Shown one piece after another: positions 19,754 through 39,928 of a stretch of DNA of 64,000 bases. The notes beneath the pieces are model-generated. The model saw only the letters and a program-made list of their open reading frames with translations, was not told the origin of the DNA and searched no databases. The translations under genes and the position numbers were made by a program. This DNA comes from Allochromatium vinosum DSM 180 (GTDB lineage Bacteria; Pseudomonadota; Gammaproteobacteria; Chromatiales; Chromatiaceae), in assembly GCF_000025485.1 (NCBI RefSeq), contig NC_013851.1, positions 1,651,154-1,715,153 on the forward strand. The letters are read 5' to 3'. How positions within the stretch are numbered: position 1 is the first letter of the stretch; every line of letters starts with the position of its first letter.

Positions 19754-20033
19754 CCCCCGCCTGAAGGCGGGGGCTTGTGAGGCGACTCACGAGCCGGGTT
19801 GACCAGGGACAGCGGTGAACATCCGCTCCGTTTGCAACAGGTCGTTGAGACCCACTCCGGGATGCTTCCTCAGTTCCGGACTCTGGAAGGTCGGGATCAT
19901 GCAGGCGAAAGGCAAAGCGCCGAAGGTTCCGATCGCCGCCGCGAGGCGGGAGCCGGTTGCAGACATTCCCGAGGGGAGCGAGCCGCAAGGCTCCGTCACC
20001 AGGCCCGTAAGGGCAGACGTTTGGAACAGACCA
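19754..20033 (+). ncRNA. Predicted omegaRNA scaffold of the IscB system
   Basis: About 280 nt upstream of iscB is rich in short complementary segments (for example GGGAGCGAGCC with GGCTCCGTC around 19974-19997) and begins with the GC-rich left-end hairpin. In characterised IscB loci this position encodes the omegaRNA, with the guide at its 5' end reading into flanking DNA, here about 19730-19750. The iscB frame happens to be open through part of it. The assignment rests on position and structure only. Confidence 0.6.
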
Positions 20034-21383
20034 ATGGCGGTATTCGTACTCGACAAACAGAAACATCCGCTGATGCCGTGCACGGAGAAACGCGCGCGGC
20101 TGTTGCTGGAGCGCGGACGCGCGGTGGTGGTGCGTCTGGCCCCCTTCACCATTCGGCTGAAGGATCGAATCGGCGGCGCGGTTCAACCACTGCGCTTGAA
20201 GCTCGATCCGGGCAGTCGCGTCACGGGGCTGGCCATCGTTCGCGAATCCGAGACCGGCGATGCGGACACGGGCGCGGTCGAGCGCTTGGAGCATGGGCTG
20301 TGGCTTGGGGAACTGGCGCATCGCGGTCAGGCGATCCGGGAGGCGCTGACGCTGCGGCGTCACTATCGCCGGGCACGCCGGTCTCGGAAGACCCGCTACC
20401 GGGCGCCGCGTTTTCTGAATCGCCCCCGCCGTGAGGGCTGGTTGCCGCCGTCGTTACAGCATCGGCTCGACACGACGCTCAACTGGGTGGCGCGGCTGCG
20501 CCGGCTCGCCCCGATCACCGCCCTCAGTCAGGAACTGGTGCGTTTCGATACCCAGGCGCTCCAGAACCCGGAGATCTCCGGTGTGGAGTACCAACAGGGC
20601 GAACTGGCGGGCTACGAAGTGCGTGAATACCTGCTGGAGACATGGCACCGCACCTGCGCCTATTGTGGCGCGACGCACGTACCGCTGGAGATCGAGCACA
20701 TCGTTCCACGCGCGCGGGGCGGCTCGGATCGGGTCTCGAACCTGACGCTCGCCTGCCGAGCCTGCAATCAGCGCAAGGCGAACCAGTCCATCGAGGACTT
20801 TCTGAAACGCCAACCGGCGCTCCTGCACCGGATCCAAGCCCAGGCCCAAGCGCCGCTTCAGGACGCCGCCGCCGTCAATGCCACGCGCTGGGCGCTGTTG
20901 AACGCGCTCCAGACCACGGGCCTCGCGGTCGAGACCGGCTCGGGCGGACGCACCAAGTTCAATCGCACGCGCCTGGACATCCCCAAAACCCATGCCCTCG
21001 ATGCCGCCTGTGTCGGCGCCGTCGATCAGGTGCGCGACTGGAACCGCCCGGTCCTGGCCATCCGCGCCACCGGGCGCGGCGCTTACCGCCGCACGCGCAC
21101 GTTCAACAACGGCTTCCCGCGCGGCTATCTGATGCGCCACAAGCGCGTCCACGGCTTCCAGACCGGCGATTGGGTGCGCGCCGAGGTGCCTAAGGGCAAG
21201 AAGGCCGGCGTGCATGTCGGGCGCGTGGCGGTGCGCCAAACGGGATCGTTCAACATCCAGGCCCAGGGCGGAACCGTTCAGGGGGTTTCTTACCGCCATT
21301 GCCGCGTCCTCCAGCGCGCTGACGGCTATGGCTACGCCTTCCAACCTAAACCAGATGCGGAGAAGGCGAGACGGGCGGCCTGA
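20034..21383 (+). CDS. iscB: IscB RNA-guided endonuclease
   Basis: A 449-residue OMEGA nuclease with all expected parts in order. The N-terminal PLMP domain has HPLMPC at 11-16. RuvC-I is LKLDPGSRVTG (Asp58), followed by an Arg-rich bridge helix at 108-133. RuvC-II is SQELVRFD (Glu167). The HNH domain spans about 205-250, with zinc pairs Cys208/211 and Cys241/244 and catalytic EIEH (His222) and Asn236. RuvC-III is THALD (His320, Asp323). A C-terminal target-interaction region of 110 residues follows. Both nuclease centres are intact, so it should cut both DNA strands with its omegaRNA. I chose the ATG that begins MAVFVLDKQ; the open frame upstream overlaps the RNA. Confidence 0.92.
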   Translation: MAVFVLDKQKHPLMPCTEKRARLLLERGRAVVVRLAPFTIRLKDRIGGAVQPLRLKLDPGSRVTGLAIVRESETGDADTGAVERLEHGLWLGELAHRGQAIREALTLRRHYRRARRSRKTRYRAPRFLNRPRREGWLPPSLQHRLDTTLNWVARLRRLAPITALSQELVRFDTQALQNPEISGVEYQQGELAGYEVREYLLETWHRTCAYCGATHVPLEIEHIVPRARGGSDRVSNLTLACRACNQRKANQSIEDFLKRQPALLHRIQAQAQAPLQDAAAVNATRWALLNALQTTGLAVETGSGGRTKFNRTRLDIPKTHALDAACVGAVDQVRDWNRPVLAIRATGRGAYRRTRTFNNGFPRGYLMRHKRVHGFQTGDWVRAEVPKGKKAGVHVGRVAVRQTGSFNIQAQGGTVQGVSYRHCRVLQRADGYGYAFQPKPDAEKARRAA

Positions 21384-22137: not shown

Positions 22138-22369
22138 CCATCGAGTTCCCGCCGAATCTCCAGCTGCGACTCAGTCTGTCGCACCTCTGTCCTATACTCG
22201 TCCCCAAGTGGAGCCGGCTTCAGCCGGGGAGCACATCGACCGATGGTGTCGGGTTGTTTTGAGATGGGTTGCACGCTTTTTCGTTGACGATCCGCCTAAA
22301 ATGGCGTGACCGTCATCGCCGGTGTCGCTCCACGACAGATACGTCAACACAACGATAAGGATGCACCCC

Positions 22370-23959
22370 ATGAGTCACTCGAATCCCGCTTCCGAGCCTG
22401 AAAACAAGGATTTGAATCTCCACGCCCCGGAGGGGCAGGACGAGGCGTCCGCCGATCGTGTCGCCGATGAAGTCTTCGGCGGCGAGGCGAACGCCGAGCA
22501 GACCGGCGCGCTCATCACTCGCTTCGTGGCGTCCTATGAGCAGAACAAAGATCGGCAGGCGCTCGACGCTTGGCTGACGGCGGAGTTTCGTCAATATCCG
22601 ACGCTGTGGCGCGACGAGGCCGAACTCGAATCCACCGCCCGTGAGATCATCGCCACGGTCGAGGCGTCCAGTGCGGCGCGGGCTTCGCTCCAAGCACATT
22701 TCGACCAGGGCAAGAGCCGCGAGAGCTGGCTGGCCAGGCGTATCGAGGAGGGTGCCGGGATCGCGGGTGTGGCTCAGGTGGGCGACTATGCCGGACGGAT
22801 CGATCAGGCGCTTGGCGAGGCCAATCAGTGCTTCCGCGACGTGGTGACGACGCATGCAGGTCACATCAACCAAGGCGAGACGTTGCACGGTTTCATGGCC
22901 GAAGCCGAGGTCGCCAACCGCTTCAATCTCAATGCTCAGGCCAATCATTCCGGCGTCCGCGCCGAGGTCGTCGGGAGCACTGGCTACAACTCGCCGGATC
23001 TGGTGCTGCGCAACGCGAGCGGCGAGGTCATCCCCAACGTCCAGGTCAAGACCTACGGCAGTACCGACAATCTCATTCAGAACCTGCGCCGGCACGATTA
23101 TCCGAAGGGCACGACGCTACTGGTGCACGAGGATCAGGTCGCGCGGGTGCAAAGCGAGTTTCCGGATCTGAAGGTGACGAGTACGCTGGAGGTCGATGGC
23201 GTCAAGGTGGCGATGCCGAGCCGCGAGGAGCTGGCGACCATGCGCTATGAGGCGCAGAAAAAGCAGGAGTTGCGCCAGTACGAATGGAACGATGTCAACC
23301 GGATCAACATCGTCAAGGGCATCGGCAAGCAGGCGCTCATCGGCGCGACCGTCGCGGCGGGGCTGCAAGGGGCGCGCATTCTCGGGCGGCGGGTCTGGAA
23401 CCGGCTCCAGGGACGTGAGAATCCGTCGCCCAGTGAGGATCTGAAGGAGTTTTTCCAAAGTTCGATCAAGAGCGGTAAGCATGTCGGCGTGCAGGTCGCG
23501 GTGTCCGGGGCGGTCGTCGTTGCGGCCAAGAACGGGTTGCTGGGTGCGGTGCTCAAGGGCACTCCGGCGGGCCGGATCACGAGTGCGGTCTACATTGGTC
23601 TGGAGAACGCGAAGATCCTGTACAAGCTGGCCAAGGGGGAGTTGACCGGGCCGGAAGCGCTGGATGCGATGGGGACGGTCAGCAGCAGTGCGTTGGGCGG
23701 ACTCGTCGGCGCGGGACTCGGGATGACCAAGGGGGCGGCGATCGGCGTGGTGTTCGGGCCTGTGGGGGCGATGGTCGGGGGCTTTGTCGGCGGTGTGGTG
23801 GGCGGCATGGCCGGCAGCACGATCGGCGATGCGCTCTATGCCGGTGGCAAGGTGCTGGTCAAGACGGCCGCGACCATGCTCAAGACGCTGACCGATGGAC
23901 TCAAGGAGGCGGGCGCGGCCGTGCTCGGTAAGCTAAACCCATTGAAGTTGTTTGCATAA
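22370..23959 (+). CDS. Unrecognised protein: PD-(D/E)XK-like region plus glycine-zipper membrane segment
   Basis: 529 residues, no family recognised. Residues about 170-250 contain an acidic residue in GFMAEAEVANRF, then GYNSPDLVL and VQVKTYGS about 20 residues later, the spacing and pattern of a PD-(D/Q)XK nuclease fold. Residues about 430-490 are a long glycine-zipper of small residues (GAGLGMTKGAAIG, then GGFVGGVVGGMAGSTIG), as seen in pore-forming or membrane-inserting proteins. The N-terminal 150 residues are charged and helical. The ATG at 22370 has AAGG 9 bases upstream. An Rpn-family gene follows after 3 bases, so the two are probably one unit. A membrane-targeted nuclease effector is possible. 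Confidence 0.6.
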   Translation: MSHSNPASEPENKDLNLHAPEGQDEASADRVADEVFGGEANAEQTGALITRFVASYEQNKDRQALDAWLTAEFRQYPTLWRDEAELESTAREIIATVEASSAARASLQAHFDQGKSRESWLARRIEEGAGIAGVAQVGDYAGRIDQALGEANQCFRDVVTTHAGHINQGETLHGFMAEAEVANRFNLNAQANHSGVRAEVVGSTGYNSPDLVLRNASGEVIPNVQVKTYGSTDNLIQNLRRHDYPKGTTLLVHEDQVARVQSEFPDLKVTSTLEVDGVKVAMPSREELATMRYEAQKKQELRQYEWNDVNRINIVKGIGKQALIGATVAAGLQGARILGRRVWNRLQGRENPSPSEDLKEFFQSSIKSGKHVGVQVAVSGAVVVAAKNGLLGAVLKGTPAGRITSAVYIGLENAKILYKLAKGELTGPEALDAMGTVSSSALGGLVGAGLGMTKGAAIGVVFGPVGAMVGGFVGGVVGGMAGSTIGDALYAGGKVLVKTAATMLKTLTDGLKEAGAAVLGKLNPLKLFA

Positions 23960-23962
23960 TCC

Positions 23963-24988
23963 ATGAACACGCACGATCCCAGTTACAAACTGCTGTTCTC
24001 GCATCCGCAGATGGTGCGCGATCTGCTGGTCGGGTTCGTCGATGAACCCTGGGTGGCGGATCTGGATCTCGACAGTCTGGAGCAGGTCAGTGGCAGCTAT
24101 ATCAGCGAGGATCTGCGCGAGCGCGAGGATGATCTGCTGTGGCGGGTGCGGCTACGCGACGGGGAGCGCGACCGCTGGCTGTATCTGTATCTGCTGCTGG
24201 AGTTTCAATCCAGCGTCGATGTGTTTATGGCGGTGCGGTTGCTGACCTATCTGGGGTTGCTGTATCAGGATCTGATCCGACAACGGGCGTTCACCGAGGC
24301 CGGGCGGCTGCCGCCGGTGCTGCCGATCGTGCTCTACAACGGCAAGCCGCGCTGGACGGCGGCGACGGAGTTGCTCGATCTGATCGAGCCGACGCCGGGG
24401 CGGTTGCGTGACTATGCGCCGCGTCTGCGCTATCTGTTGCTGGATGAGGGCGCGATTGACGAGAGTGCGCCCTGGGCGTTGCAAAATCTGGTGGCGGCGC
24501 TGTTTCGGCTGGAGAAAAGCCGGGGGCCGTTGCCGTTGCAGACGGCGATAGCGGCCTTGATCGACTGGCTCGATGCCCCGGAACAGGCCAGTCTGCGCCG
24601 CGCCTTTACCGTGTGGATCAAACGGGTGTTGATTCCGGGGCGGATGCCGGGCGTCAATCTGCCTGAGTTGGGCGACTTATTGGAGATCAAAACCATGTTG
24701 GCCGAAAGTGTGATCGAGTGGACGCAGGACTGGAAGCAGCAGGGGATTGAGGAAGGGCGTATACAAGGGCGCATGGAGGGACGCATGGAGGGGCGCATCG
24801 AGGGACGCATTCAAGGATTGATCGAAGGCGAATCCAGTTTGCTGGAGCGTTTATTGACCAAACGCTTTGGCCCGCTACCTGAAGATGTGCGCACTCGCTT
24901 GCAAGCGGCGAACAGCGAGCAGTTGCAGTGCTGGGCAGAACGAATTCTGGATGCTCGTCAGTTGCGCGATGTCTTTGCTGACGACTGA
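23963..24988 (+). CDS. Rpn-family (PD-(D/E)XK) nuclease / putative transposase
   Basis: A 341-residue Rpn (YhgA-like) protein. It opens with HDPSYKLLFSHP and carries the PD-(D/E)XK residues Asp57 in DDLLWRV and Glu80-x-Gln82 in LEFQSS. The C-terminal quarter is a repeat-rich linker (GRME/GRIE units) followed by a small helical DUF4351-like domain. E. coli Rpn proteins are DNA nucleases tied to recombination and phage defence. It begins 3 bases after the upstream gene. An internal ATG with its own ribosome-binding site suggests a second, shorter product. Confidence 0.85.
   Translation: MNTHDPSYKLLFSHPQMVRDLLVGFVDEPWVADLDLDSLEQVSGSYISEDLREREDDLLWRVRLRDGERDRWLYLYLLLEFQSSVDVFMAVRLLTYLGLLYQDLIRQRAFTEAGRLPPVLPIVLYNGKPRWTAATELLDLIEPTPGRLRDYAPRLRYLLLDEGAIDESAPWALQNLVAALFRLEKSRGPLPLQTAIAALIDWLDAPEQASLRRAFTVWIKRVLIPGRMPGVNLPELGDLLEIKTMLAESVIEWTQDWKQQGIEEGRIQGRMEGRMEGRIEGRIQGLIEGESSLLERLLTKRFGPLPEDVRTRLQAANSEQLQCWAERILDARQLRDVFADD
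24695..24988 (+). CDS. Candidate internal gene: short C-terminal Rpn product (RpnS-like)
   Basis: An in-frame ATG at codon 245 of the Rpn gene is preceded by TGGAGAT with the GGAG 9 bases upstream, a better start signal than the full-length gene has. Translation here would give a 97-residue protein with the repeat linker and C-terminal domain but no nuclease. In E. coli, Rpn loci encode such short in-frame products that block the full-length toxin. Expression here is inferred. Confidence 0.45.
   Translation: MLAESVIEWTQDWKQQGIEEGRIQGRMEGRMEGRIEGRIQGLIEGESSLLERLLTKRFGPLPEDVRTRLQAANSEQLQCWAERILDARQLRDVFADD
24755..24826 (+). repeat. Six tandem 12-bp units in the Rpn gene
   Basis: The units have consensus GGRCGCATSGAG and encode GRIQ, GRME, GRME, GRIE, GRIQ and GLIE. 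Slippage in a 12-bp array would change length without breaking frame, altering the spacing between the nuclease and the C-terminal domain. Confidence 0.75.
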
Positions 24989-25004
24989 GTTTTATCGCAG
25001 GCTT

Positions 25005-25027
25005 GCTCCTACGTCTGAGCGTGGAGC
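25005..25027. repeat. Decayed copy of the 1321-1346 hairpin
   Basis: GCTCCTACG and CGTGGAGC flank TCTGA-G, matching the ppiD-fabI hairpin with a C-to-T change and one lost base in the right arm. It sits between the Rpn and FGE-like genes and also supplies the GGAG ribosome-binding site for the latter. Confidence 0.45.
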
Positions 25028-25035
25028 TATCAAAA

Positions 25036-26334
25036 ATGGGTGACGAGATGAAACTGATCAAGTTCGACCTTTCGATTGATGGCATCAAAGTCAAGGATAT
25101 CAATGAACTGCGCGATCACTTTACGCCCGAGATTCTAGCTCACTATCGAAGTGGTGTTTTAGCTAAATGGCTGATGACGCGAAAATATCAGGATGAGCTG
25201 ACGGCGCTGGCCTCACTGGAGGATGGCGATGATCACTCGCTTCTCAAGGCGTTGTGTCATGTGTTTCAGATCGATGCCGATGAGCGTGTGATTGCCGAAG
25301 CGTTGCGGGAGGTTCGTCCTGCCGCTGTGGTTGCAATGTCCGGCCAAGAAAGCAGTCGGCTCAAATTTGCTTTGTCAATCAATGGGAAGCGCGTAAGTCG
25401 GCTTGATGATTTGCGTGCTAATTTTACCATCGAAGTTCTCGACCATTATCGCAATGGTCTGTTGTCTGAATGGCTGCATTCACATGGTCTGACGCAAGAG
25501 TTGGCGGCTGTCAATGCGATTGATGAGTCAGAGGATCACTTGCTTGTCAAAAGCCTGAGTCGGATTTTCGCGGTCGAGGCCGATGATCGGCTGATTGCCG
25601 AGGCATTAAAAACAGGTGCGCAGATTATGCCGCTAGAGCCTTGCCCCGGTGCAACCTGGACTGAGAAATTGACTGGAATAGTTTTTGTTTGGATACCGCC
25701 TGGCTGTTGGTCGGCAAAGAAGAAATTTGTAAGCCTCAATAGCAAAAGCAATGAATACATTGCTGTTCGCATGAATGGCTTTTGGTTGAGTCAGCAGCCA
25801 ATAACTAATGAGCAGCGGAATTTCTTAATGGAAGAGAATCACAAGCCAGTCAGTGATCCATCTTCTTTTTACGAAAACACTGAGTTAAGTGATCGGCAGA
25901 AATTTATTGGGATTTTAAATGTGCGCAATCCTAGCAAGAGTCGATTTCGCTTGCCGCGAATTGCTGAACTGATATATGCCATGAGTGGAGGCGCCAATTT
26001 CATTGGCGCAGATTTTGATGATCGTGATCCATTTGTGCGTGAAGGATCAAGCAATTTTGACAAGGAGCTATGCGGTCATCACCCCTGGAATTTATACTTG
26101 AATTTCAATAATCAACAGCATGCGTATACTGAATTTACGATGGAGGGTGAATTGGTTGCTTTCAAGCAAGGGGATTTTTTTATGGCAAGTGAAGGCAATG
26201 GTGATTATAGTGAAATTTTTGGAGATGTTTTCGGGGATATTTTTGGTGGCGGAAGGGGTATGAAGATCAATAATTTAAACGCCAGGGGCGAATCTAATTT
26301 GTTTAGAATTATTCGTGAGGCGTGTCTAAATTGA
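25036..26334 (+). CDS. FGE/SUMF1-like protein with duplicated N-terminal domain
   Basis: 432 residues. Two copies of an about 80-residue unit form the N-terminal half; they share a beta-hairpin-like start (KFDLSIDG / KFALSING), then HYRSGVLAKWL / HYRNGLLSEWL, and end at ERVIAEALR / DRLIAEALK. The second half resembles a formylglycine-generating-enzyme-type (C-type lectin-like) fold: GIVFVWIPPGCW, GFWLSQQPITNEQ and FRLPRIAELIYAMSGG. A typical full catalytic Cys pair is not evident, so it may be a binding domain rather than an enzyme. The 3' two-thirds is clearly AT-rich compared with both neighbours, a sign of transfer. GGAG precedes the ATG by 9 bases. Confidence 0.6.
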   Translation: MGDEMKLIKFDLSIDGIKVKDINELRDHFTPEILAHYRSGVLAKWLMTRKYQDELTALASLEDGDDHSLLKALCHVFQIDADERVIAEALREVRPAAVVAMSGQESSRLKFALSINGKRVSRLDDLRANFTIEVLDHYRNGLLSEWLHSHGLTQELAAVNAIDESEDHLLVKSLSRIFAVEADDRLIAEALKTGAQIMPLEPCPGATWTEKLTGIVFVWIPPGCWSAKKKFVSLNSKSNEYIAVRMNGFWLSQQPITNEQRNFLMEENHKPVSDPSSFYENTELSDRQKFIGILNVRNPSKSRFRLPRIAELIYAMSGGANFIGADFDDRDPFVREGSSNFDKELCGHHPWNLYLNFNNQQHAYTEFTMEGELVAFKQGDFFMASEGNGDYSEIFGDVFGDIFGGGRGMKINNLNARGESNLFRIIREACLN

Positions 26335-26403: not shown

Positions 26404-27897
26404 ATGACTCAGAAACTCCAAGCCACCCTCCGCGCCCACGTCGAATCCCACTACCCAATCCTCTACCTCCTGACCTACGAGGAAGCCGAGGCCGACGCCC
26501 TGATCCGCGACCTCGCCGAGGATCGCAAGATCCTGGAATGGAACATGGCGCGCGGCCTGGTCGACTTCGCCACCAAGCGCCCGCAAACCGACTGGTGCGA
26601 CCTGGCCACCGCGCTCGACACCCTGCTCGACTGGGACGACCTCAACCACCACGTCATCGTCATCCGCGACGCCCATCTCGGACTGCGCGATCAACCGCTG
26701 GCCGTCGCCCGACTCAAAGCCCTGGTCAACCGCCTCCTCGCCGACGACGAAGCCGTCGTCACCCTCTTCCTGCTGTCCTCCCAAGTCTTCCTGCCGCCCG
26801 AACTGGACAAATTCATCACCCTGTTCGAAATGCCGCTGCCCGACGAAACCACCATCCGCCAACTCGTCACCGACTACGTCCAAGCCTACGAACTGAACAC
26901 CGACGCCGACACCATCGGCAAAATGGCCCTCGCCCTGCAAGGCCTGACCCGCTACGAAATCGGCCAGCTCATCAATCGCGGCTACCAGCGCGACGGCGAC
27001 ATCGGACTCGAAGACCTCGACCTCGTACTGACCGAAAAAGCCCAGATCATCCGCAAGAGCGGCACCCTCGAAATGCTCACCGTCAACGAGCGCCTGGAAA
27101 GCATCGGCGGACTCGGCCGCCTCAAACACTGGCTCAACCAAAAAGCCCAGGTCATGGCCGACTGGCCCGCCGCGCGCGCCTTCGGCGTCGAACCGCCCAA
27201 GGGCGTGATGATCGTCGGCATGCCCGGCTGCGGCAAATCCCTGACCGCCAAAGCCACCGCCGCCCTCTTCAACCTGCCGCTGCTCAAGCTCGACATGGGC
27301 TCGCTCATGGGCAAATACGTCGGCGAAAGCGAAGCCAACATGCGCCGCGCCATCCAGGTCGCCGAAGCCGTCAGCCCCTGCGTCCTCTGGGTCGACGAAG
27401 TCGAAAAAGCCTTCGTCGGCATCGGCGCCGGCGGCGACGGCTCCGAGGTCGCCACCCGACTGTTCGGCTACTTCCTGACCTGGATGCAGGACAAGACCAA
27501 ACATGTGTTCGTCATCGCCACCGCCAACGACATCTCGGCCCTGCCGCCCGAACTGCTGCGCAAAGGCCGCTTCGACGAAATCTTCTACGTCGACTTCCCC
27601 AGCCGCGAAGAGCGCGCCGACATCTTCCGCGTCCACCTCCACAAGCGCGGCAAGCTCTCGGCCCAGATCCAGCTCGACCGACTGGCCCAGGCCACCGAGG
27701 GCTATTCGGGCGCCGACATCGAATCCGTGGTCAAGGAAGCCATCGAGCAAGCCTTCGTCGACGGGCGCTCGGCACTCGACAGCGACCGGCTGTTGCAGGT
27801 GATCGGCAACACCTACCCGCTGCGCGAAGTCATGAAGAAAAAGTTGAAGGAGTACGCCGAGCGCATCGCGGAGATGAAGATCAAACCGGCGTCTTGA
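26404..27897 (+). CDS. Ycf46-like AAA+ ATPase
   Basis: A 497-residue AAA+ protein. The first 230 residues are a degenerate, non-Walker half typical of Ycf46. The C-terminal half has Walker A GMPGCGKS, pore-loop region [13 protein letters not shown], Walker [13 protein letters not shown], sensor-1 VIATAND and arginine finger region LLRKGRFDE. Ycf46 proteins of cyanobacteria are linked to inorganic-carbon use, but their bacterial role is unclear. It follows the AT-rich FGE-like gene by 69 bases and converges with the maturation protease; the codon use is again GC-rich. Confidence 0.8.
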
Positions 27898-27981: not shown

Positions 27982-28503
27982 TCAATGGGAGTCGCCGTCT
28001 GATAGCGCTGCACCCCATCCGCTCAGGATCTCGCCAACGCGTTCGATCACGTCGGGAATCGCCGCCGCGACCGACGGCGACAGCTCCAGCCCCAGTTCCA
28101 GACATTCGGGCACGATGCCGACAAGGACGATCTCGGTCGGGCCATCGTCGAGCAACTGGAGCAGTGCCAGCAGATCCGACACGCCTAAATGATGCACCGA
28201 GAGCTTCGGACTCAGCGCGCGGCGGATGTCGGCATCGCGGAAGACGGCAATCCGGCCTGGCGGCGCGTCGAGTGCGATGGCATCGATCATCAGGATGCGC
28301 CGATGCTCGGCGAACAGCGGCAGCAGGTCCAGGCCCAGAGTGCCGCCGTCGATCAGCGTGACGGCCGGTTCGAGCCGGTAATCGCGTTCGAGCCGACGCA
28401 GCACATGGATACCCACGCCCTCATCGCCAAGCAACAGATTGCCGAGTCCAATCAGCAGAATGTCCGCGCCTAGATCATCGTTCACGTTCAATTCGGATTC
28501 CAC
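27982..28503 (-). CDS. [NiFe]-hydrogenase maturation protease (HyaD/HupD family)
   Basis: A 173-residue endopeptidase that trims the C-terminus of a hydrogenase large subunit once nickel is inserted. Nickel ligands expected in the family are present: Glu in GDEGVG, Asp in DAIALDAPPG or nearby, and His in SVHHLGVSDLL. The opening LLIGLGNLLLGDEGVGIHVL is diagnostic. The start is the GTG preceded by GGAGGTGA at ideal spacing; a longer 229-codon frame adds unrelated residues. No hydrogenase structural gene is in the window, so its partner lies elsewhere or is gone. The gene is divergent from the cytochrome operon. Confidence 0.85.
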   Translation of the reverse strand: MESELNVNDDLGADILLIGLGNLLLGDEGVGIHVLRRLERDYRLEPAVTLIDGGTLGLDLLPLFAEHRRILMIDAIALDAPPGRIAVFRDADIRRALSPKLSVHHLGVSDLLALLQLLDDGPTEIVLVGIVPECLELGLELSPSVAAAIPDVIERVGEILSGWGAALSDGDSH

Positions 28504-28737
28504 TGTCACCTCCAATTTCAGAGCGTCCGCACACGCCGGCCAGAGTGCGCAGCCCGACGCTCCAGTTCGAGAGTACCACGGTCCGATGGGTCTTGATCCG
28601 CCCGTTTTCGACCTCGATCGGGTGCGAGCGGCGACCGGCGTCGTCCATAATCGGCGAATCGGATTGGCCAACGACAGGGCGTTTGGCTAAGGTGTCGGGA
28701 AGGGGACAGATGAAGCGAACAGGAGCGCTCCTTACTC

Positions 28738-29700
28738 ATGAACGATCAAGATGTTTCGGCCCGATTCGGCGGCCTGCTCGCCCTGGGCCTGCTGCTGTTG
28801 AGCGTGCTGCCTGGAGCGATGCCGCAGGTCGAAGCCGCCATCCAGGGCCGGCTGGGCACCGACAACGCCGACTGTCTGCGCTGTCATCGCATGGAGACGC
28901 TGGGCTATCGCGACCCGCGCACAGGCGACTTGGTCGATCTGCACGTCGATGGCCGACAATTCGGACACTCGGCTCATGGCGAACTCCAGTGCATCGACTG
29001 CCACGAGGGCGACTTCGGCCAGTATCCGCATCCGGAGTCGGTGCTCGGGCAACGGCTCGACTGCGTCGGCTGTCATCAGGAACTGCACAAGGCGGACAAA
29101 CGCGCCTACACCTTCAAGACCATCGACCAGGAATTCGCCCTCAGTATCCATGCCGTCTCGGACTCACCCAAGGCCGAGGGCTTCGACTGTCATCGCTGTC
29201 ACGACCCGCATGCGTTCCGCAACTCCGAGGTCGGGCAGCCGATCGCCGAGATCGTGCGTGCGGGCAATGAACTCTGTCTGTCCTGTCACACCAAGATCCG
29301 CGACCCGCACAGCACCGCGCACCTGTGGCTACCGAAACGCGACAAGCATTGGGGATCGGTGCGCTGTCTCGACTGTCATACGCCCTTGACCGATCCGGGG
29401 CAGCCGGTCTCGCATCAGATTCTGGCCGCCAAAGACAGCAACTTCGACTGCGTCAGTTGTCACTCCAAGGAGGCGCGTCTGCTCGGACGGCTCTATCAGT
29501 ACCGTTCCGAGACCGATCTGGCCGGCGGCGGCTGGCTGTCGAAGGCGGTCTTCAATGAAGCCTATGTCGTCGGCATGAGCCGCAGTCCGCTACTCGACGC
29601 GCTGGGTCTGGGTGTGATCGGTCTGACCCTGCTGGTGCTGATCGCGCACGGCTGGGGCCGCTATCGCGCCTATCGACGTCTACGGGAGGATCGGTCATGA
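28738..29700 (+). CDS. Membrane-anchored heptahaem cytochrome c
   Basis: A 320-residue periplasmic electron carrier. Seven CXXCH haem sites are visible in order: CLRCH, CIDCH, CVGCH, CHRCH, CLSCH, CLDCH and CVSCH. A hydrophobic N-terminal segment (about 12-33) is a signal or anchor, and a C-terminal helix (about 284-303) is a membrane anchor. It resembles NapC/NrfB-like small multihaem modules only in general. It opens a four-gene operon joined by ATGA overlaps. A 12-bp palindrome (AGGAGCGCTCCT, 28721-28732) contains the probable ribosome-binding site. Confidence 0.8.
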   Translation: MNDQDVSARFGGLLALGLLLLSVLPGAMPQVEAAIQGRLGTDNADCLRCHRMETLGYRDPRTGDLVDLHVDGRQFGHSAHGELQCIDCHEGDFGQYPHPESVLGQRLDCVGCHQELHKADKRAYTFKTIDQEFALSIHAVSDSPKAEGFDCHRCHDPHAFRNSEVGQPIAEIVRAGNELCLSCHTKIRDPHSTAHLWLPKRDKHWGSVRCLDCHTPLTDPGQPVSHQILAAKDSNFDCVSCHSKEARLLGRLYQYRSETDLAGGGWLSKAVFNEAYVVGMSRSPLLDALGLGVIGLTLLVLIAHGWGRYRAYRRLREDRS

Positions 29701-30344
29701 GCGCACTCTATCTCTATCCGCGCTGGCTGCGCGCCTGGCACTGGGTCAATGCGCTGCTGTTCCTGGTGCTGATGTACACCGGCGCCAGCATGCACTTCGG
29801 CGAGGGCGGCTGGCTGATGCCGTTCGATCTGGCGGTCACGGTCCACAACACGGCGGGCATCCTGCTGACGCTGGGCTGGATCGGCTTCGTGGTGGGCAAC
29901 CTGCGCACCGAGAACGGGCGGCACTACCGGATACACTTGTCGGGCTTCGTCGACCGCCTGGTCGTCCAGGGGCGCTATTACGCCCAGGGCATCTTCCGCA
30001 ACGAACCGCATCCCTTCCATGTCAGCGTCGGGATGAAGTTCAACACCCTGCAACAGCTCAGCTATCTGGGCGTGATGTTCGGCCTGATGCCGCTCTTGAT
30101 CCTGAGCGGCTGGGCGTTCCTGTTCTCGGTCTCGCTGCCCGAGACCCTGCTCGGTCTGCCGAGCGTCTGGCTGGTGGCCATGGCGCACCTGACGCTGGCC
30201 TATCTGCTGGTGCTGTTCCTGCTCGTGCACATGTACATCATCACCACCGGCGAAACCGTCACGACCAATCTGCGCGCCATGATCACCGGCTGGCACCGCG
30301 AGGACGAACCGGGTTCCGACCGGCGTGAGGAGGCCAAATCATGA
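29697..30344 (+). CDS. Cytochrome b561-type membrane subunit
   Basis: A 215-residue integral membrane protein with four main helices and histidines suited to two b haems (RAWHWVN near the N-terminus, TVHNTAG near 58 and HLTLAYLLVLFLLVHMYI near 165). It belongs to the cytochrome b561/thiosulfate-reductase cytochrome b class and should exchange electrons between quinone and the two cytochromes c of this operon. It overlaps both neighbours by ATGA. Confidence 0.85.
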   Translation: MSALYLYPRWLRAWHWVNALLFLVLMYTGASMHFGEGGWLMPFDLAVTVHNTAGILLTLGWIGFVVGNLRTENGRHYRIHLSGFVDRLVVQGRYYAQGIFRNEPHPFHVSVGMKFNTLQQLSYLGVMFGLMPLLILSGWAFLFSVSLPETLLGLPSVWLVAMAHLTLAYLLVLFLLVHMYIITTGETVTTNLRAMITGWHREDEPGSDRREEAKS

Positions 30345-32539
30345 ACCCCATCGCCACACTGCTCGACCCCAGGACCAAACGCCGCCTGATCGTCGGCGCC
30401 GGCGTGTTCGGCGTTCTGGCGCTGGCCTATCGCTTCCTCTATCCGGTGGTCTTCGATGCCTATGTCGGCAAGACCAACGCGCCCCTGACCTATGAAAGCA
30501 GCCAGACGCTCACCGAAGCCGAATTCGAGGCAATGGCCCAGTCGCTGAGCGAGGAAGCACGCCGGCTCAAGGCCGAATCGGTCGTCGCTGAAGATCAAGA
30601 CCCCTTCGCGCGTCAGGTCAAGGTCGAGATGCTGATGAACACCGAGTCGTTCATCCGCGACAGCCAGCCGAGCCACATCAAGTATTTCCGCGAGGCCGGC
30701 ATCCGTCAGTACGAAGGCCCCAAGACCTGTCTGACCTGTCACGCCACCATCGAGGTCGATCATCCGGACGGCACCCGCTCGACGGTCGACACCCTCGACG
30801 ATCTCGTCAACTCGGTGCATTTCAAGTTCCAGAGCAGCGCCGGCGGCTTCTCGACCTATGGCTATGACGGACGTCAGGTGAACGCCGGTCCGCACAAGAT
30901 CCCGGTCGGCAAGATCGACCGCGCCTGCGGCATTCCGGGCAGCTTCACCTGGACCGGCTGGGCGGCGCTGGTCGCGAGCCGTCCCGAGCATGTCGAGGAA
31001 GGCGAGGTGGTGCTGCGCAGCGAGGGCTGCGGCCAGTGTCACATCGGCGGCAACTATCAGCCGGCGACCGAGAAGATGATGCCGGTCGGCGATGTACCGA
31101 GCATGGCCAAGGAAGGGATCGACTGTCTGATCTGTCATGCACGCGACTACGACATGAATCAGCGCGTCGTCATCCGCGACGAATACGGGTTGCGCTGGGA
31201 TCAGGACCGCAGCCTGCGCGCGGCGCTCACCGTCGGCCCGATCAGCTCCGAGACCTGTCTGCGCTGTCATCAGCACAACATGGGCGGCGACGTCTACGAG
31301 CACAATGCTGCTGCCCAGTCGCTCGGCTACAAGCACCAGCGTCTGCTGCATCGCGGAGCCAAGCGCGGCAATCCCTTCAGTCCCGAGGACGACGCCCACG
31401 CCGCCGCCGGCATCCAGTGCACCGACTGCCATCGCCCCGAGGGCCACAAGATTCCGCGCGGGCGTATGGGGGTGGATCTGGTCGCCAACGATCTGCCGGA
31501 CAAGGAGGTCTCGTGCGAAACCTGTCACACGCGAGCGCCCCACAACAACTCCAGGGACAAGGCACTGCTCAACGGCCATATCGCGCGGCTCGCCTGCGAG
31601 ACCTGTCATATCCCGCGCCTGGAAGACAACAACGTGGTGCTGCGCGACTGGGTGCATCCGACCTGGGACGCGGAAGAGGGGATCTGGGAGCCGACCGATG
31701 TCTATCGTTCGGGCGAACCGGGCAAGGGGTTCACCTACCTCTGGTTCAACGGCAACGGCACCTTCCTGGCCAATGCGCTGGGCAACAATCCGAACGGTGC
31801 CGACACCTATGATCCGCTGATGCAGCAGATCGCGCGGATCGACGACCCGGAGATCATCGCCGCCGTGCGCGCCAAGGCGACGGAACTCAAAGCGCAGTAT
31901 CCCGACATCGATGTCGAGCGCTATGTCCGGATGGCCACGGACCCGCTGTCGCAGCTCACGCCCGAGATGCTCGAACGGCGCCGTGCCATGATCCAGGCCA
32001 ACCTGCGCGCGGCCATGAACGATGGGGAGAGCCGGATCTATCCGTTCAAGCTCTTCAACGCCATGATGTACGAGGACATGTCCAACCAGGGACCGTTCGG
32101 GGCCATGATCCTGCCGTTCGACTACAGCACCTACTATGAGACGGGCGACACCCAGGCTGCCGTCAAGCGTGCCATCCAGGATCCGATCGTCCGGCGCATG
32201 TATCAGGAGCCGTTCAAGCTCTACATGATGGACGAGTTCATGGCCTATTTCGGCGTCAGCGGCGGCTGGAAGACGATCTATCCGCTCGTCGACGGTCAGC
32301 TCGTCAACGTCGAACCGCACTGGATGCGCCAGATGGGCACGCTCATGGTCAACCACGGCATCCAGCGCCAGGGGCACGACTGCGCCGACTGTCACGCGCC
32401 CAACGGTATCATGGATTTCAAACTGCTCGGCTACACGCCCGAACGGATCGCCGAACTCCAGGATCCGGAGCTGCTCAGACAGCCGCCGGTAAACGAGACG
32501 ATGGCAAACGCCGAGACACCGGCTCCGTCCGTGCCATGA
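30341..32539 (+). CDS. Octahaem cytochrome c related to octahaem tetrathionate reductase
   Basis: A 732-residue secreted or membrane-anchored protein with a hydrophobic N-terminal helix (about 15-35). Eight CXXCH motifs are present: CLTCH, CGQCH, CLICH, CLRCH, CTDCH, CETCH (twice) and CADCH. The order and surroundings (CLTCH with a nearby HF/HW, DCLICH, CLRCHQHNMGGD, then RLACETCHIP) resemble the octahaem tetrathionate reductase family. The protein is longer than typical OTR (about 430-500 residues), with a 300-residue extension that puts the last haem near 690. A tetrathionate, nitrite or hydroxylamine substrate is possible; none is shown by sequence. Confidence 0.75.
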   Translation: MNPIATLLDPRTKRRLIVGAGVFGVLALAYRFLYPVVFDAYVGKTNAPLTYESSQTLTEAEFEAMAQSLSEEARRLKAESVVAEDQDPFARQVKVEMLMNTESFIRDSQPSHIKYFREAGIRQYEGPKTCLTCHATIEVDHPDGTRSTVDTLDDLVNSVHFKFQSSAGGFSTYGYDGRQVNAGPHKIPVGKIDRACGIPGSFTWTGWAALVASRPEHVEEGEVVLRSEGCGQCHIGGNYQPATEKMMPVGDVPSMAKEGIDCLICHARDYDMNQRVVIRDEYGLRWDQDRSLRAALTVGPISSETCLRCHQHNMGGDVYEHNAAAQSLGYKHQRLLHRGAKRGNPFSPEDDAHAAAGIQCTDCHRPEGHKIPRGRMGVDLVANDLPDKEVSCETCHTRAPHNNSRDKALLNGHIARLACETCHIPRLEDNNVVLRDWVHPTWDAEEGIWEPTDVYRSGEPGKGFTYLWFNGNGTFLANALGNNPNGADTYDPLMQQIARIDDPEIIAAVRAKATELKAQYPDIDVERYVRMATDPLSQLTPEMLERRRAMIQANLRAAMNDGESRIYPFKLFNAMMYEDMSNQGPFGAMILPFDYSTYYETGDTQAAVKRAIQDPIVRRMYQEPFKLYMMDEFMAYFGVSGGWKTIYPLVDGQLVNVEPHWMRQMGTLMVNHGIQRQGHDCADCHAPNGIMDFKLLGYTPERIAELQDPELLRQPPVNETMANAETPAPSVP

Positions 32540-33375
32540 TCCGGAACCTGACCATCACGCAACTGGCGGAAAACGCGGCCAGCTCGCCTGGGTTGCTCGG
32601 TGAGCATGGCGCGTCCTTCTTCATTGAGGCCGACGCGCACTGTCTGCTGCTCGACACCGGGCAGGGGCTGACGCTGCGGCACAATGCCGCACGGCTCGGA
32701 ATCGCGCTCGAACGGGTGACGGCGGTCGCGCTCAGTCATGGCCATTACGACCACACCGGCGGGCTGGAGACGGTGATCGAATGCACCGGCGGTGCGATCG
32801 ATCTCTATCTGCATCCCGAGGCGCTGGCGCCCAAGTTCAACCGCGATGGCCGCTCAATCGGATCGCCGACCACGGATCTGGAGGTGCTGCGACCGCGCGT
32901 GCGGCGGCTCATCGCCGATACTGGGCCGATCGAGATCCGACCCGGCATCCAGCTCAGCGGCGAGATCCCGCGCCGCCATGCCATCGAAGATACGGGCGGC
33001 CCTTTCTATCGCGACGCCGCGCGCACCGAGATCGACGATCTGCCCGACGATCAGGCGCTCATCATCAACACCCTAGCGGGACTGGTGGTAGTGCTCGGCT
33101 GCGGTCATTCCGGGCTGATCAACACGCTCGATCATGTCCGCACGCTCGCGCCCGGACGCCCGATCCACGCCATTCTGGGCGGAACCCATCTGCTGCGCGC
33201 CGGCACCGAGCGTCTGGACTTCACCGTCGGCGCACTCGCCGGATTTGGGATCGACTATCTGGCCCCCAACCACTGCACCGGATTGGCGGCCACCTGCCTG
33301 CTGCGCCGGAGCTTCCCGGATCAGTTCCACGAGTCCCCCACAGGCACCGTGCATCGATTCGGAGCGGCCGCCTGA
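32536..33375 (+). CDS. Metallo-beta-lactamase-fold protein (7,8-dihydropterin synthase-like)
   Basis: A 279-residue MBL protein. The metal motif is SHGHYDHTGG near residue 70, with a further His in GCGHSGLINTL and the ending APNHCTG. This is the pattern of the MptA/dihydropterin-6-yl-methyl-aminobenzene phosphate synthase-like group, whose bacterial members are mostly uncharacterised. It is the last gene of the multihaem operon and overlaps the octahaem gene by ATGA, so a role in cofactor or electron-transfer function is possible. Confidence 0.78.
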   Translation: MIRNLTITQLAENAASSPGLLGEHGASFFIEADAHCLLLDTGQGLTLRHNAARLGIALERVTAVALSHGHYDHTGGLETVIECTGGAIDLYLHPEALAPKFNRDGRSIGSPTTDLEVLRPRVRRLIADTGPIEIRPGIQLSGEIPRRHAIEDTGGPFYRDAARTEIDDLPDDQALIINTLAGLVVVLGCGHSGLINTLDHVRTLAPGRPIHAILGGTHLLRAGTERLDFTVGALAGFGIDYLAPNHCTGLAATCLLRRSFPDQFHESPTGTVHRFGAAA

Positions 33376-36782: not shown

Positions 36783-37031
36783 ATGACTAACCAAAAGCAG
36801 AAGCGGCGAGCCTCGACCACGGGCACGCTCGTAGGCACACGATTCCAACCGGGCATGCTCGACGCATGGAGGAGGAATCAAGACGATATTCCGACTCGCC
36901 CTGAAGCGATCAGGCGCTTAGTCGAACTAGGCATGTCAGCCTGCTTCGCGCCCCCCCCCCGCGGACACAATGCAGTAAGGATTGAGAATCAATGGTTGCC
37001 CCATGAAGAAGCCGAAAGAGATTGTCCCTAA
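36783..37031 (+). CDS. Small ribbon-helix-helix regulator with a C10 tract
   Basis: 82 residues. Residues 14-53 fit an Arc/MetJ-type RHH: GTLVGTRFQPGMLDAW (beta strand and first helix), then RPEAIRRLVELGM (second helix). The domain ends before a run of ten C's at codons 57-60, which encodes Pro-rich residues. A long tail after it overlaps the next gene by about 50 bp. Loss of one C would end the protein at TAA 36976-36978, a more usual length. It is probably the regulator of the DUF262-HEPN-methyltransferase genes behind it. Confidence 0.6.
   Translation: MTNQKQKRRASTTGTLVGTRFQPGMLDAWRRNQDDIPTRPEAIRRLVELGMSACFAPPPRGHNAVRIENQWLPHEEAERDCP
36951..36960 (+). repeat. Run of ten cytosines (possible phase-variation tract)
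   Basis: Ten consecutive C's lie inside the RHH gene after the DNA-binding domain. Each one-base change switches the reading frame. Such tracts cause phase variation in other bacteria, but a sequencing error in the tract cannot be excluded. Confidence 0.8.
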
Positions 37032-38082
37032 ATCCAAAGCAGAGAAGGAAGCGGCCGAGGATCAGATCCTTGAACTGTCCAAGCGGATAGAGTTCTATCT
37101 CACCGAGTACTCGGTCGAATTGCTTGCCAAAAAGATGCATGAAGGCGAATTCTTCGTGCCACCCTATCAGCGCGAGTTCACCTGGGAGCCTGAACGTAAG
37201 TCAAAGTTTATCGAATCTCTGCTGATCGGTTTACCCATCCCTTTCCTCTTCTTCTGGGAGAGACCGAAAGACGGAAAGCTCGAGATCGTGGATGGCTCAC
37301 AGCGCCTGCGGACGATTGAAGAGTTCATCCTGGGAGAGTTTCGGCTCGGGGAGCTGGAGAGCTTGACTGCCGTCTCTGGGTTCACATTCTCAGACCTCCC
37401 CGAATCTAGACGAAGGAAGATCAAGAACCGATCGATCCGTGGCATAGTCCTGAACGAAAACGCCGACGAACAAGCTCGCTTCGACATGTTCGAGCGCATC
37501 AATACGGGCAGCAAGATCGCGAATGAAGCAGAGGTGCGTCGTGGTGCGCTCGGGGGACCTTTTATGGACCTCATCATCGAGCTTTCCTCACACTCGAAGT
37601 TCGTCGCTTTGGCTCCTGTACCACAGAAATCTGTCGATAAGAGGGAACGAGAGGAACTGGTTGCTCGTTTCTTCGCCTACAGCGATGGACTCAACGGCTA
37701 TCGCGACCGCCCCGCGGAGTTCGTTTTTAAATACGTTAAGAGGATGAACGACGAGGTCGCTTCCGCCTCCGCCAAGATCGAACACTATCGCAGCCGATTC
37801 CTGGAAATGATCGACTTCGTCGACCGTGTCTTCCCTCACGGGTTTAGGCGAACCCCCAGAGGCAAAGCCAGTCCTCGCGCTCGGTTCGAGGCTATTGCAG
37901 TCGGATCCAGACTGGCCTTGGATGCCCGTCCTGAGTTGGTCGAGCAGGAATCGATCGACGTCGAGCCATGGCTGGATAGCGAGGATTTCAAGAAGGTCAC
38001 GGGCTCCGACGGAGCAAATGCCATCGCACGCTTGATAGGCCGCATTAATTTCGTCAAAGCAAAACTCTTGGCGAACGCATGA
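37003..38082 (+). CDS. DUF262 protein (ParB/Srx-like domain), GmrS-like without HNH domain
   Basis: 359 residues from the ATG chosen; a TTG 21 bases upstream is also possible, and no clear ribosome-binding site decides between them. The DUF262 domain is complete: PPYQREFTWEPERKSKFIES (residues 53-72), DGSQR (97-101) and FERINTG (about 160). In GmrSD and relatives this domain binds nucleotide and regulates restriction. The DUF1524/HNH nuclease that often follows is absent; the rest is helical. A HEPN gene overlaps its stop (ATGA), so the nuclease function may have passed to it. Confidence 0.8.
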   Translation: MKKPKEIVPKSKAEKEAAEDQILELSKRIEFYLTEYSVELLAKKMHEGEFFVPPYQREFTWEPERKSKFIESLLIGLPIPFLFFWERPKDGKLEIVDGSQRLRTIEEFILGEFRLGELESLTAVSGFTFSDLPESRRRKIKNRSIRGIVLNENADEQARFDMFERINTGSKIANEAEVRRGALGGPFMDLIIELSSHSKFVALAPVPQKSVDKREREELVARFFAYSDGLNGYRDRPAEFVFKYVKRMNDEVASASAKIEHYRSRFLEMIDFVDRVFPHGFRRTPRGKASPRARFEAIAVGSRLALDARPELVEQESIDVEPWLDSEDFKKVTGSDGANAIARLIGRINFVKAKLLANA

Positions 38083-38810
38083 GCGCTCTGACAACTGCCT
38101 TCCAGGAACGCAAAGCGGAAGTTGAGGCATACCTGGAGTTTCTTTCGGACATGGAGGAACAAACTAAGAAAGGTCCGCCGCGTTTCGAGGGAGCCCAGCG
38201 GCCAATCACCGTCGAGCAACAAAGAATCCTCTATTCGACCGTCTACCTGCAACTGTATAATCTCGTGGAAGCGACGATATCTTTATGTATTCATGAGGTT
38301 ACAGAGGCAACGAGAAGCAATGCGCAGTGGACGCCGAGTGATTTGAACGATGATCTTCGCCGCGAATGGGTGCGTGCTGTCGCGCGCACCCACGAGGCAT
38401 TGAGTCCTGATAATCGATTGAATCATGCGCTTCAGCTCTGCAATCACTTGGCCTCGGCTCTACCGGTGGACCGTTTCGATATGGATAAGGGAGGTGGAGG
38501 TAATTGGGACGATTCTGCGATAGAGCGCATGACCAAGCGTCTTGGCTTCGAGCTTCACGTTGCTAAGAAGATCTACGCAGCGATCAAGAAACCTATTCGA
38601 GATGACATGGGGTCTTTGGCTTTGGTGAAGAACCTCCGCAATCGCTTGGCGCACGGATCCATCTCTTTTGTGGAATGCTCAGAGAATGAAACTTTTTCTG
38701 GGATTAAGAGCTTGGCGAATAACACCTTGCGTTATCTGGAGGCTGTGGTTGGCTGTTTCGAAAAATACCTGGAAGGATACGAATACCTCCTTCCTGAGCG
38801 GCGTCCATAA
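38079..38810 (+). CDS. HEPN-domain protein (MAE_28990-like), putative ribonuclease
   Basis: 243 residues, mostly helical. The region around residues 150-195 has the HEPN pattern with Rx4-6H in RNRLAH (Arg187 to His192), the catalytic motif of HEPN ribonucleases. The N-terminal half (YLQLYNLVEATISLCIHEV) fits the first helices of the large MAE_28990-type HEPN families, which are repeatedly found with DUF262 and restriction genes. The assignment to the exact family is from memory. It overlaps the DUF262 stop by ATGA and the methyltransferase start by TAATG, so the three are translationally coupled. Confidence 0.65.
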   Translation: MSALTTAFQERKAEVEAYLEFLSDMEEQTKKGPPRFEGAQRPITVEQQRILYSTVYLQLYNLVEATISLCIHEVTEATRSNAQWTPSDLNDDLRREWVRAVARTHEALSPDNRLNHALQLCNHLASALPVDRFDMDKGGGGNWDDSAIERMTKRLGFELHVAKKIYAAIKKPIRDDMGSLALVKNLRNRLAHGSISFVECSENETFSGIKSLANNTLRYLEAVVGCFEKYLEGYEYLLPERRP

Positions 38811-39928
38811 TGAATAAGTGCCTCAAAAATCTTCAGGAAATAACCTTCAATATCAAAGCTGTAGATTTATTCTGCGGGGTTGGAGGGTTGACCCATGGTT
38901 TGTCGCGTGGCGGCATTCAAGTCATGGCTGGCATCGACATTGACGCCAGTTGCCGTTATCCCTACGAAGCCAATAATCCAGCTCGATTTATCGAGCATGA
39001 TGTCGGAACACTGCCCCCCGATCTGATCACGCCTTACTATGAAAATGCCGACTACACCTTGCTCGCCGGATGTGCGCCCTGTCAGCCATTCTCGTCCTAT
39101 AGCCGTAGTGGGCGTAATCGGGAGTATGAATCGCAATGGCCGCTCGTCTCCTCTTTCGGTAAATTGGCAGAAGCGATTCGGCCCGACCTGATAACCATGG
39201 AGAACGTGCCTCAGTTGGCAGATCATCCAGTTTTCGATGAGTTGCTCGCGAGCCTCTCCGGTTACGAGACTTGGTGGCAGATCGTCGAATGTTCAAAGCT
39301 GGGGATTCCCCAGACCCGCAAGCGTTTAGTACTGCTCGCATCTCGCCTAGGTAAGGATTCTTTAGAGCTGATTGAAGAATCCAACCAGGAAACAACCGTC
39401 CGCCAGACCATAGGAATGCTCCCTGCCATTGATGCCGGCGAAATCCACCCAGAAGACGAGCTGCACATGGCATCCTCGTTGAGTCCTATGAATCTGGCTC
39501 GAATCAAGAAATCGCGCCCCGGTGGAACTTGGCGCGATTGGCCAGATGAACTGAAGGCTGCTTGTCATCGCAAGTCCAGTGGTGCTACGTATCCCAGTGT
39601 CTACGGACGTATGGAGTGGGATCGACCGGCTCCGACGATCACGACTCAGTGCTTCGGCTATGGGAATGGGCGATTTGGGCATCCAGAACAGCATCGCGCA
39701 ATTTCTCTGCGCGAGGCGGCCATGCTGCAAACCTTTCCGGCGGACTATTCGTTTGCTCCCGCTGGAACCAGGTTCAAGTTCAACAGGATGGGTCGTTTGA
39801 TCGGCAACGCGGTTCCCGTTCGGCTGGGAGAGGCGATTGCCCAATCTCTAGTCGCTCATGTTCGCGTCTGCTCATCTCGGTCTCCAGGCACTGGAGCCGA
39901 GCAACTACCAACGACTCAGCTTCATTGA
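38810..39928 (+). CDS. DNA (cytosine-5-)-methyltransferase
   Basis: A 372-residue C5 methyltransferase with all main motifs in order: motif I DLFCGVGG (19-26), motif IV GCAPCQPFS with catalytic Cys91, motif VI ENV (131-133), motif VIII QTRKR (168-172), then a target-recognition region, motif IX (PTITTQ) and motif X (GNAVPVRLGEAI). It should make 5-methylcytosine at a site that cannot be read from sequence. No classical restriction endonuclease is present; DUF262 and HEPN occupy its place. A decayed Vsr gene converges on its 3' end. Confidence 0.93.
   Translation: MNKCLKNLQEITFNIKAVDLFCGVGGLTHGLSRGGIQVMAGIDIDASCRYPYEANNPARFIEHDVGTLPPDLITPYYENADYTLLAGCAPCQPFSSYSRSGRNREYESQWPLVSSFGKLAEAIRPDLITMENVPQLADHPVFDELLASLSGYETWWQIVECSKLGIPQTRKRLVLLASRLGKDSLELIEESNQETTVRQTIGMLPAIDAGEIHPEDELHMASSLSPMNLARIKKSRPGGTWRDWPDELKAACHRKSSGATYPSVYGRMEWDRPAPTITTQCFGYGNGRFGHPEQHRAISLREAAMLQTFPADYSFAPAGTRFKFNRMGRLIGNAVPVRLGEAIAQSLVAHVRVCSSRSPGTGAEQLPTTQLH

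Follow-up and report, generated by a model that had tools for sequence, protein, structure and literature searches.

The closest described relatives of the system considered here are the octahaem tetrathionate reductases (OTRs). The Shewanella enzyme reduces nitrite and hydroxylamine besides tetrathionate (PMC4484225), and BOGUAY_2386, a tetrathionate/nitrite reductase of an orange Guaymas Beggiatoaceae and itself kin to OTR, has a cytochrome b gene downstream and reduces nitrite more slowly than tetrathionate (PMC6449678). In purple sulfur bacteria, a pair of genes for a b561-type and an octahaem cytochrome has been named as conserved; the accessible text of that report gives the pair of Chromatium okenii neither a function nor a heptahaem partner (PMC6374484). 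Here, we describe a gene set in a 64,000-nucleotide stretch of the Allochromatium vinosum DSM 180 genome (contig NC_013851.1, positions 1,651,154 to 1,715,153; hereafter the window), in which positions 28738-33375 encode a heptahaem c-type cytochrome, a b561-type membrane cytochrome, an octahaem OTR-like cytochrome and a hydrolase of the metallo-beta-lactamase (MBL) fold. The conserved unit is formed by the first three genes, in the order heptahaem-b561-octahaem (hereafter the triad), and the MBL gene is a local addition. We tentatively propose, at not quite an even chance, that the triad works in the periplasm as a quinol-linked reductase and that its substrate is a sulfur compound, be it a thionate, a polysulfide or similar.

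The four genes all lie on the plus strand and are joined by three ATGA overlaps, at 29697, 30341 and 32536, as a preliminary description of this DNA had stated; its counts of seven and eight CXXCH sites were recovered from the translations, and its assignments of a dihaem b561 subunit and of an MBL protein also stand. The heptahaem protein (28738..29700, 320 aa) has a signal-like N-terminal helix, seven CXXCH sites that are all invariant in 51 aligned rows, and a C-terminal membrane helix, placed at residues 284-319 by the structure model (pLDDT 80.2, pTM 0.64). With this model no PDB fold match was found at E 0.001 or better, and the sequence alone matches 28pb_A in a PDB sequence search (E 6.2e-8). 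The heptahaem start is directly preceded, at 28718-28738, by AGGAGCGCTCCT, a palindrome that takes in the likely ribosome-binding site and may have arisen by chance. The b561 protein (29697..30344, 215 aa) matches PF01292 with 79.8 bits (cut-off 30.1), has no flagged CXXCH site and carries a putative quinol site. Its H15, H50, H164 and H178, invariant in 33/33 aligned rows, are the number needed for two bis-His haems b, whose ligands they would be. The best NCBIfam match of b561 is PRK15006, the thiosulfate reductase cytochrome b (192.5 bits), a likeness to the PhsC type; in contrast to that type, the match falls below the family cut-off of 204 and the flanking genes encode cytochromes c rather than a PhsAB-type pair. 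The octahaem protein (30341..32539, 732 aa) is the presumed catalytic subunit, with eight CXXCH sites (residues 130, 230, 262, 306, 360, 392, 419 and 681) and an N-terminal membrane helix that falls within a predicted helix at residues 10-42. The MBL protein (32536..33375, 279 aa) matches PF00753 (44.2 bits) and has an HGHYDH motif.

The extent of the system was judged from a species-level scan with one genome per species, which returned 142 relatives of the octahaem protein, the best 80 of which were taken for locus comparison. The heptahaem-b561-octahaem order is found in 66 of the 68 loci whose sequence extends more than 2.5 kb beyond the 5' end of the octahaem gene. One of the two exceptions, from a Melioribacteraceae metagenome-assembled genome (MAG; L121, 6231-7895), encodes the heptahaem and b561 parts as one fused 554-aa protein with 7 CXXCH; the other (L105) is taken up below. 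Among the 12 loci with shorter upstream DNA, both genes are present in 8, b561 only, near a contig end, in 3, and neither in L096, where an unrelated 514-aa open reading frame (ORF) lies upstream. Neighbourhoods were clustered from ORFs that had been called greedily, with no gene model; the absence of a single gene, as in L053, may therefore be an artefact, and most clusters are unannotated. Carriers comprise Chromatiaceae, Thiomargarita/Thiotrichaceae, Magnetococcales, two alphaproteobacterial MAGs, Bacteroidota, Ignavibacteriota and Calditrichota; no relative was found on viral contigs. The octahaem protein of A. humboldtianum is 98% identical to that of A. vinosum, and C. okenii LaCa (L093) has heptahaem, b561 and octahaem genes in a row, the b561/octahaem pair already reported from this species being very likely the same genes as those described here (PMC6374484).

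By contrast with the widely kept order of the triad, the MBL gene adjoins it in only 3/80 relatives, all of them Allochromatium, or in 3 of the 66 loci with 900 bases or more of sequence 3' of the octahaem gene, and for this reason we take the system to be the triad and the MBL gene to be a lineage-specific add-on. The MBL protein might alternatively be an essential fourth part, a sulfur transferase or dioxygenase working with the cytochromes. Such a four-part system could draw on the ATGA overlap between the MBL and octahaem genes and on a second genome collection, in which 5 of 8 genomes of the same genus have the two genes side by side (the other 3 having no tblastn match there). Set against the counts of 3/80 and 3/66, such a system is highly improbable, and the MBL protein was rejected as a working part. 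The role of accessory that the preliminary description had given to this protein is consequently not retained.

Kinship of the octahaem protein with OTR is apparent from sequence, profile and predicted structure. The sole clear match of the protein in a PDB sequence search is 1sp3, the OTR of Shewanella oneidensis (E 2e-15), and a 72-row family profile again finds 1sp3 (E 1.4e-17), followed by NrfA (E 1.1e-4). In a profile-profile comparison with 23 OTR rows (probability 99.9, E 3.6e-32), haems 2 to 8 are in register and haem 1 lies outside the aligned stretch; the resemblance in motif order seen in the preliminary description is borne out, the eight haems c standing in OTR order. With an AlphaFold2 model (mean pLDDT 78.4, pTM 0.83, with low-confidence stretches at 160-171 and 183-206), the only structure that Foldseek finds at E 0.001 or better is 1sp3 (E 1.4e-11; rmsd 9.7 across 646 columns), and in the VIA alignment with 1sp3, 373 of 436 residues are aligned (Z 15.4, rmsd 3.7). 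The octahaem protein is hence predicted, by two aligners, to have the OTR fold.

The two families are nonetheless separate. At 732 aa, the octahaem protein is some 290 residues longer than the 443-aa 1sp3 chain, in line with the extra 250-300 residues noted earlier, and it scores 78.9 to 94.6 bits with the NCBIfam OTR family TIGR04315, well below the curated cut-off of 375 bits. A phylogeny against OTR, proposed as a check in the preliminary description, placed the 25 octahaem rows and the 18 OTR rows (among them L157, itself below the OTR cut-off) on either side of a branch with 100/100 support, in a tree without outgroup and with long branches flagged. Placement in an already characterised family that shares the operon of four genes, which that description had named as a refutation, was not observed; the family stands apart from OTR, and no functional study of it was found in the open-access literature.

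Other multihaem enzymes were considered as well. MccA/SirA, the octahaem sulfite reductase, is a periplasmic protein with eight haems. One of the haem sites of MccA is of the CX15CH kind (PMC7096707), whereas all eight octahaem sites here are CXXCH, which rules out this identity, and MccA gave no row in PDB sequence searches with the octahaem protein or its profile. Hydroxylamine oxidoreductase was not among the matches listed by PDB sequence or fold searches with the octahaem protein, an absence from the lists that does not exclude kinship. Reduction of nitrite, hydroxylamine or NO, for detoxification or ammonification, would be in keeping with the nitrite and hydroxylamine activities of the Shewanella OTR and the nitrite activity of BOGUAY_2386, and with the weak match of the octahaem profile to part of the NrfA structures. 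However, the latter match spans only about 50 profile positions, and no nitrogen-cycle gene occurs among the few neighbouring families that are annotated, the remaining families being unannotated; we regard this function as rather improbable.

The putative active site has one feature that may be shared with OTR and others that are peculiar to the new family. In the section from haem 1 to haem 2, an invariant GK is followed by a Cys that is present in 72/72 octahaem rows (C196) and in 23/23 OTR rows (C133); this stretch lies outside the profile alignment and is poorly modelled (183-206). We take the OTR residue to be the active-site Cys of the Shewanella enzyme. Lysine K230 of the OTR alignment, in the motif GGGGDxVKHGD, is conserved in 23/23 OTR rows and presumably coordinates the catalytic haem of the Shewanella enzyme on its distal side. 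The aligned octahaem position, 320, has a Lys in only 3/72 rows. The octahaem family has instead a 15-residue insert (residues 334-348) in which H337, K341 and R342 are each present in 72/72 rows; K341 may replace the OTR lysine. With the lysine at a variable position, the score below the TIGR04315 cut-off and the separate clade, the protein was rejected as an OTR proper. What it has in common with OTR is the eight CXXCH sites, the predicted fold, a possibly equivalent GK-Cys before haem 2 and an adjoining b561 of one family, and what sets it apart, besides its length, clade and active-site residues, is the added heptahaem subunit.

In all, 178 octahaem columns are invariant in the 72 rows, including C196, H337, K341 and R342, and these bear on whether the triad might be a pure electron conduit, leading for instance from the inner membrane to minerals or periplasmic carriers without small-molecule catalysis. 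The enhancement of larger A. vinosum cytochromes on pyrite (PMC11267869) would suit a conduit, but the extent of invariance and a predicted fold that is that of an enzyme argue for catalysis. Moreover, other multihaem gene families recur in at most 2/80 loci, in a comparison that did not include a search for outer-membrane porins. A conduit thus seems quite improbable.

The A. vinosum genome encodes a second octahaem protein, at 1612364-1613734, which is a true OTR (TIGR04315, 597.9 bits against the cut-off of 375). Together with its own b561 gene it occupies 1611642-1613734 of contig 1 (L149, L164). A b561 of the same family as that of the window (31-36% identity) directly follows OTR in 7/7 OTR loci examined, and a search of the A. 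vinosum genome with the window's b561 returned two matches only, itself and the b561 beside the true OTR. Because OTR loci carry a b561 of this family and the genome has both pairs, the triad looks like a paralogue of such a pair that has been enlarged, its octahaem subunit being longer and a heptahaem relay having been added. BOGUAY_2386, which is 582 aa long and was placed with the Shewanella enzyme by its authors (PMC6449678), would correspond to the true OTR of the A. vinosum genome rather than to the octahaem protein of the window, as judged from length and kind. A second copy of the heptahaem protein was not found in the genome. A published tally of A. vinosum cytochromes, with one 7-haem and two 8-haem proteins (PMC11267869), fits these searches, which gave one heptahaem and two octahaem proteins.

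The quinone-linked function suggested in the preliminary description keeps its footing in the OTR kinship and the quinone-type b561, but not in the MBL accessory. In the reading that we favour, the three proteins would form one membrane-anchored periplasmic enzyme complex, in which b561 would exchange electrons with the quinone pool, the tail-anchored heptahaem protein would relay them between b561 and the octahaem protein, and the latter, anchored at its N terminus, would reduce a small soluble acceptor with them. The most likely site of this step is haem 2, close to the invariant Cys196. Such a reductase would provide an electron outlet for an over-reduced quinone pool, or in the dark. We infer the complex and its membrane topology, as well as the electron path, its direction, the substrate and the catalytic haem. 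Reduction appears likelier than oxidation because OTR-type enzymes with measured activity reduce their substrates (PMC6449678, PMC4484225), because the b561 and the hydrogenase genes that neighbour some triads fit a quinol-fed outlet, and because carriers exist outside the sulfur-oxidising phototrophs.

Among the 41 Chromatiaceae loci in which the heptahaem start lies more than 1.5 kb from a contig end, a divergent [NiFe] hydrogenase cluster is directly upstream of the triad in 8 (7 by script and L066 by eye, the latter with a 164-aa ORF between cluster and triad). The one cluster that was annotated with Pfam, in L106, encodes a small subunit, an FeS protein, an NrfD-type protein and a large subunit, plus a maturation protease. 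Its large and small subunits have PRK10467 and PRK10468 as best NCBIfam matches, both below their cut-offs, the small subunit being above that of the broader TIGR00391, and by these nearest names the cluster would be of the hydrogenase-2 type; a HydSL/Isp1/Isp2-type cluster was ruled out on the same grounds. A quinone-reducing hydrogenase would be a fitting partner for a quinol-oxidising reductase. In A. vinosum, the gene divergent to the triad encodes only a HyaD/HybD-type hydrogenase maturation protease (27982..28671, minus strand; TIGR00072, 141.1 bits). This protease is probably the remnant of a hydrogenase-2-like cluster as found at that place in relatives, since it alone is kept here and the best hydrogenase small subunits of the genome itself share just 48% and 43% identity with the L106 small subunit. 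In the Calditrichota locus L104, a [NiFe] hydrogenase with a cytochrome b is convergent with the triad. The adjoining protease had suggested that the triad might consist of hydrogenase subunits, a candidate that was dropped, as 33/41 Chromatiaceae loci have no hydrogenase there; hydrogenase is accordingly taken as a partner at most.

Other neighbours vary with the lineage. In the 12 Magnetococcales loci with the same clearance upstream of the heptahaem gene, an upstream regulator is present in 11 and an ankyrin-repeat-like family in 10 (ankyrin by Pfam in L110, the regulator resembling a sigma-54 activator by eye), and a MerR-type regulator family precedes the triad in 5/6 Bacteroidota loci and in L104 (by Pfam in L124).

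The distribution of the octahaem protein within the A. vinosum family was examined in 210 genomes, with a match threshold of E 1e-20 and counts that ignore kinship. The protein is present in 73 of them. Octahaem and reaction-centre genes occur together in 68 genomes, octahaem only in 5, reaction centre only in 9 and neither in 128, so that the octahaem gene is carried by 68/77 reaction-centre genomes and by 5/133 others. In a class-wide sample of 369 genomes, an octahaem match at E 1e-30 or better was obtained only in the A. vinosum genome itself, and the protein was not found in the 6 other reaction-centre genomes of that sample, which belong to other gammaproteobacterial families.

Several of these results weigh against a quinol-linked sulfur reductase. 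The link with reaction centres is unlike what a general respiratory outlet would give, although shared ancestry may account for it. Most Chromatiaceae loci lack the hydrogenase, the OTR lysine is not kept at its position, and its candidate substitute K341 falls in an insert relative to the OTR alignment. As for the complex itself, gene adjacency is no proof; in addition, an Ignavibacteriae MAG (L105) has the heptahaem gene directly followed by the octahaem gene, without b561, and a genome of the same genus (G100, L046) has b561 and octahaem genes at a locus where tblastn gave no heptahaem match. Finally, octahaem and b561 are reported as upregulated in A. vinosum on sulfide (PMC6374484, citing Weissgerber 2013), which fits oxidation too.

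Such an oxidation would be the work of the same complex in reverse, with the octahaem protein oxidising reduced sulfur species in the periplasm and b561 feeding the quinone pool for photosynthesis. The response to sulfide, the frequency of the octahaem gene in reaction-centre genomes of the family and its presence in Thiomargarita, which are sulfur oxidisers, all speak for this direction. Against it stand the reductive activities measured for OTR relatives, the hydrogenase neighbours, which would feed the same quinone pool, and the carriers among Bacteroidota, Ignavibacteriota and Calditrichota MAGs. The carriers of these three phyla are not known to us as sulfur-oxidising phototrophs. We consider oxidation somewhat unlikely, and return to a quinol-fed reductase for the question of its substrate.

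Tetrathionate is doubtful as a general substrate, because C. okenii carries the genes and no Sox genes were found in it (PMC6374484), and because Thiodictyon syntrophicum is described as being without TsdA (PMC5944118) while two uncultured Thiodictyon MAGs (L071, L103) carry the triad. Sulfur globules are located in the periplasm (PMC4213376), and periplasmic sulfur or polysulfide would suit all the carriers discussed. In a more specific proposal, the triad would be the missing periplasmic step of sulfur-globule use, spending quinol electrons to break down the polymeric sulfur of the globules. The soluble persulfide or sulfide so formed could pass into the cytoplasm when cells are in the light, or be lost as H2S when they are in the dark. 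This would explain the occurrence of the octahaem gene in 68/77 reaction-centre genomes of the family and in none of the 6 from other families, as well as its retention in C. okenii, in which no Sox genes were found. On the other hand, the gene is missing from 9/77 reaction-centre genomes of the family, and plain shared ancestry may account for the entire link with reaction centres. Nor are the Bacteroidota, Ignavibacteriota and Calditrichota carriers known to us as makers of globules, and on balance we hold this role in globule use to be unlikely.

Elsewhere in the window, a 522-aa ORF with RRXRR and HNH domains (19815-21383, +) has what we take to be the make-up of IscB-like RNA-guided nucleases. 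At 22322-26334 (+), ORFs of 545 and 443 aa have no Pfam match at E 0.001 and flank a YhgA-like transposase-family protein; the 443-aa protein contains two copies of a similar stretch, and an AAA ATPase gene follows at 26404. A GmrSD N-terminal domain protein, a HEPN protein and a C-5 cytosine methylase are encoded in a row at 36982-39928 (+), which looks like a restriction or defence cassette.

Parts of this system were already in print, namely the b561/octahaem pair (PMC6374484) and the counts of 7- and 8-haem proteins (PMC11267869). In the open-access literature, no paper was found that deals with the three-gene unit or with what it does. New here is a system that keeps a predicted OTR-like fold and a b561 partner and differs from OTR in its subunits and in its active-site signature. 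The analysis defines a conserved, putative three-subunit haem complex, predicted to hold two haems b and fifteen haems c, whose catalytic-looking subunit departs from OTR at the very lysine that we take to be a ligand of the OTR catalytic haem, and to which the literature found assigns no role, though most reaction-centre genomes of the family carry its octahaem gene. For purple sulfur bacteria, the way in which sulfur passes across the inner membrane is stated to be unknown (PMC5944118), and elemental sulfur is assumed to require an input of energy before it can be taken up (PMC4213376). The triad is a candidate for part of the answer to how sulfur crosses that membrane.

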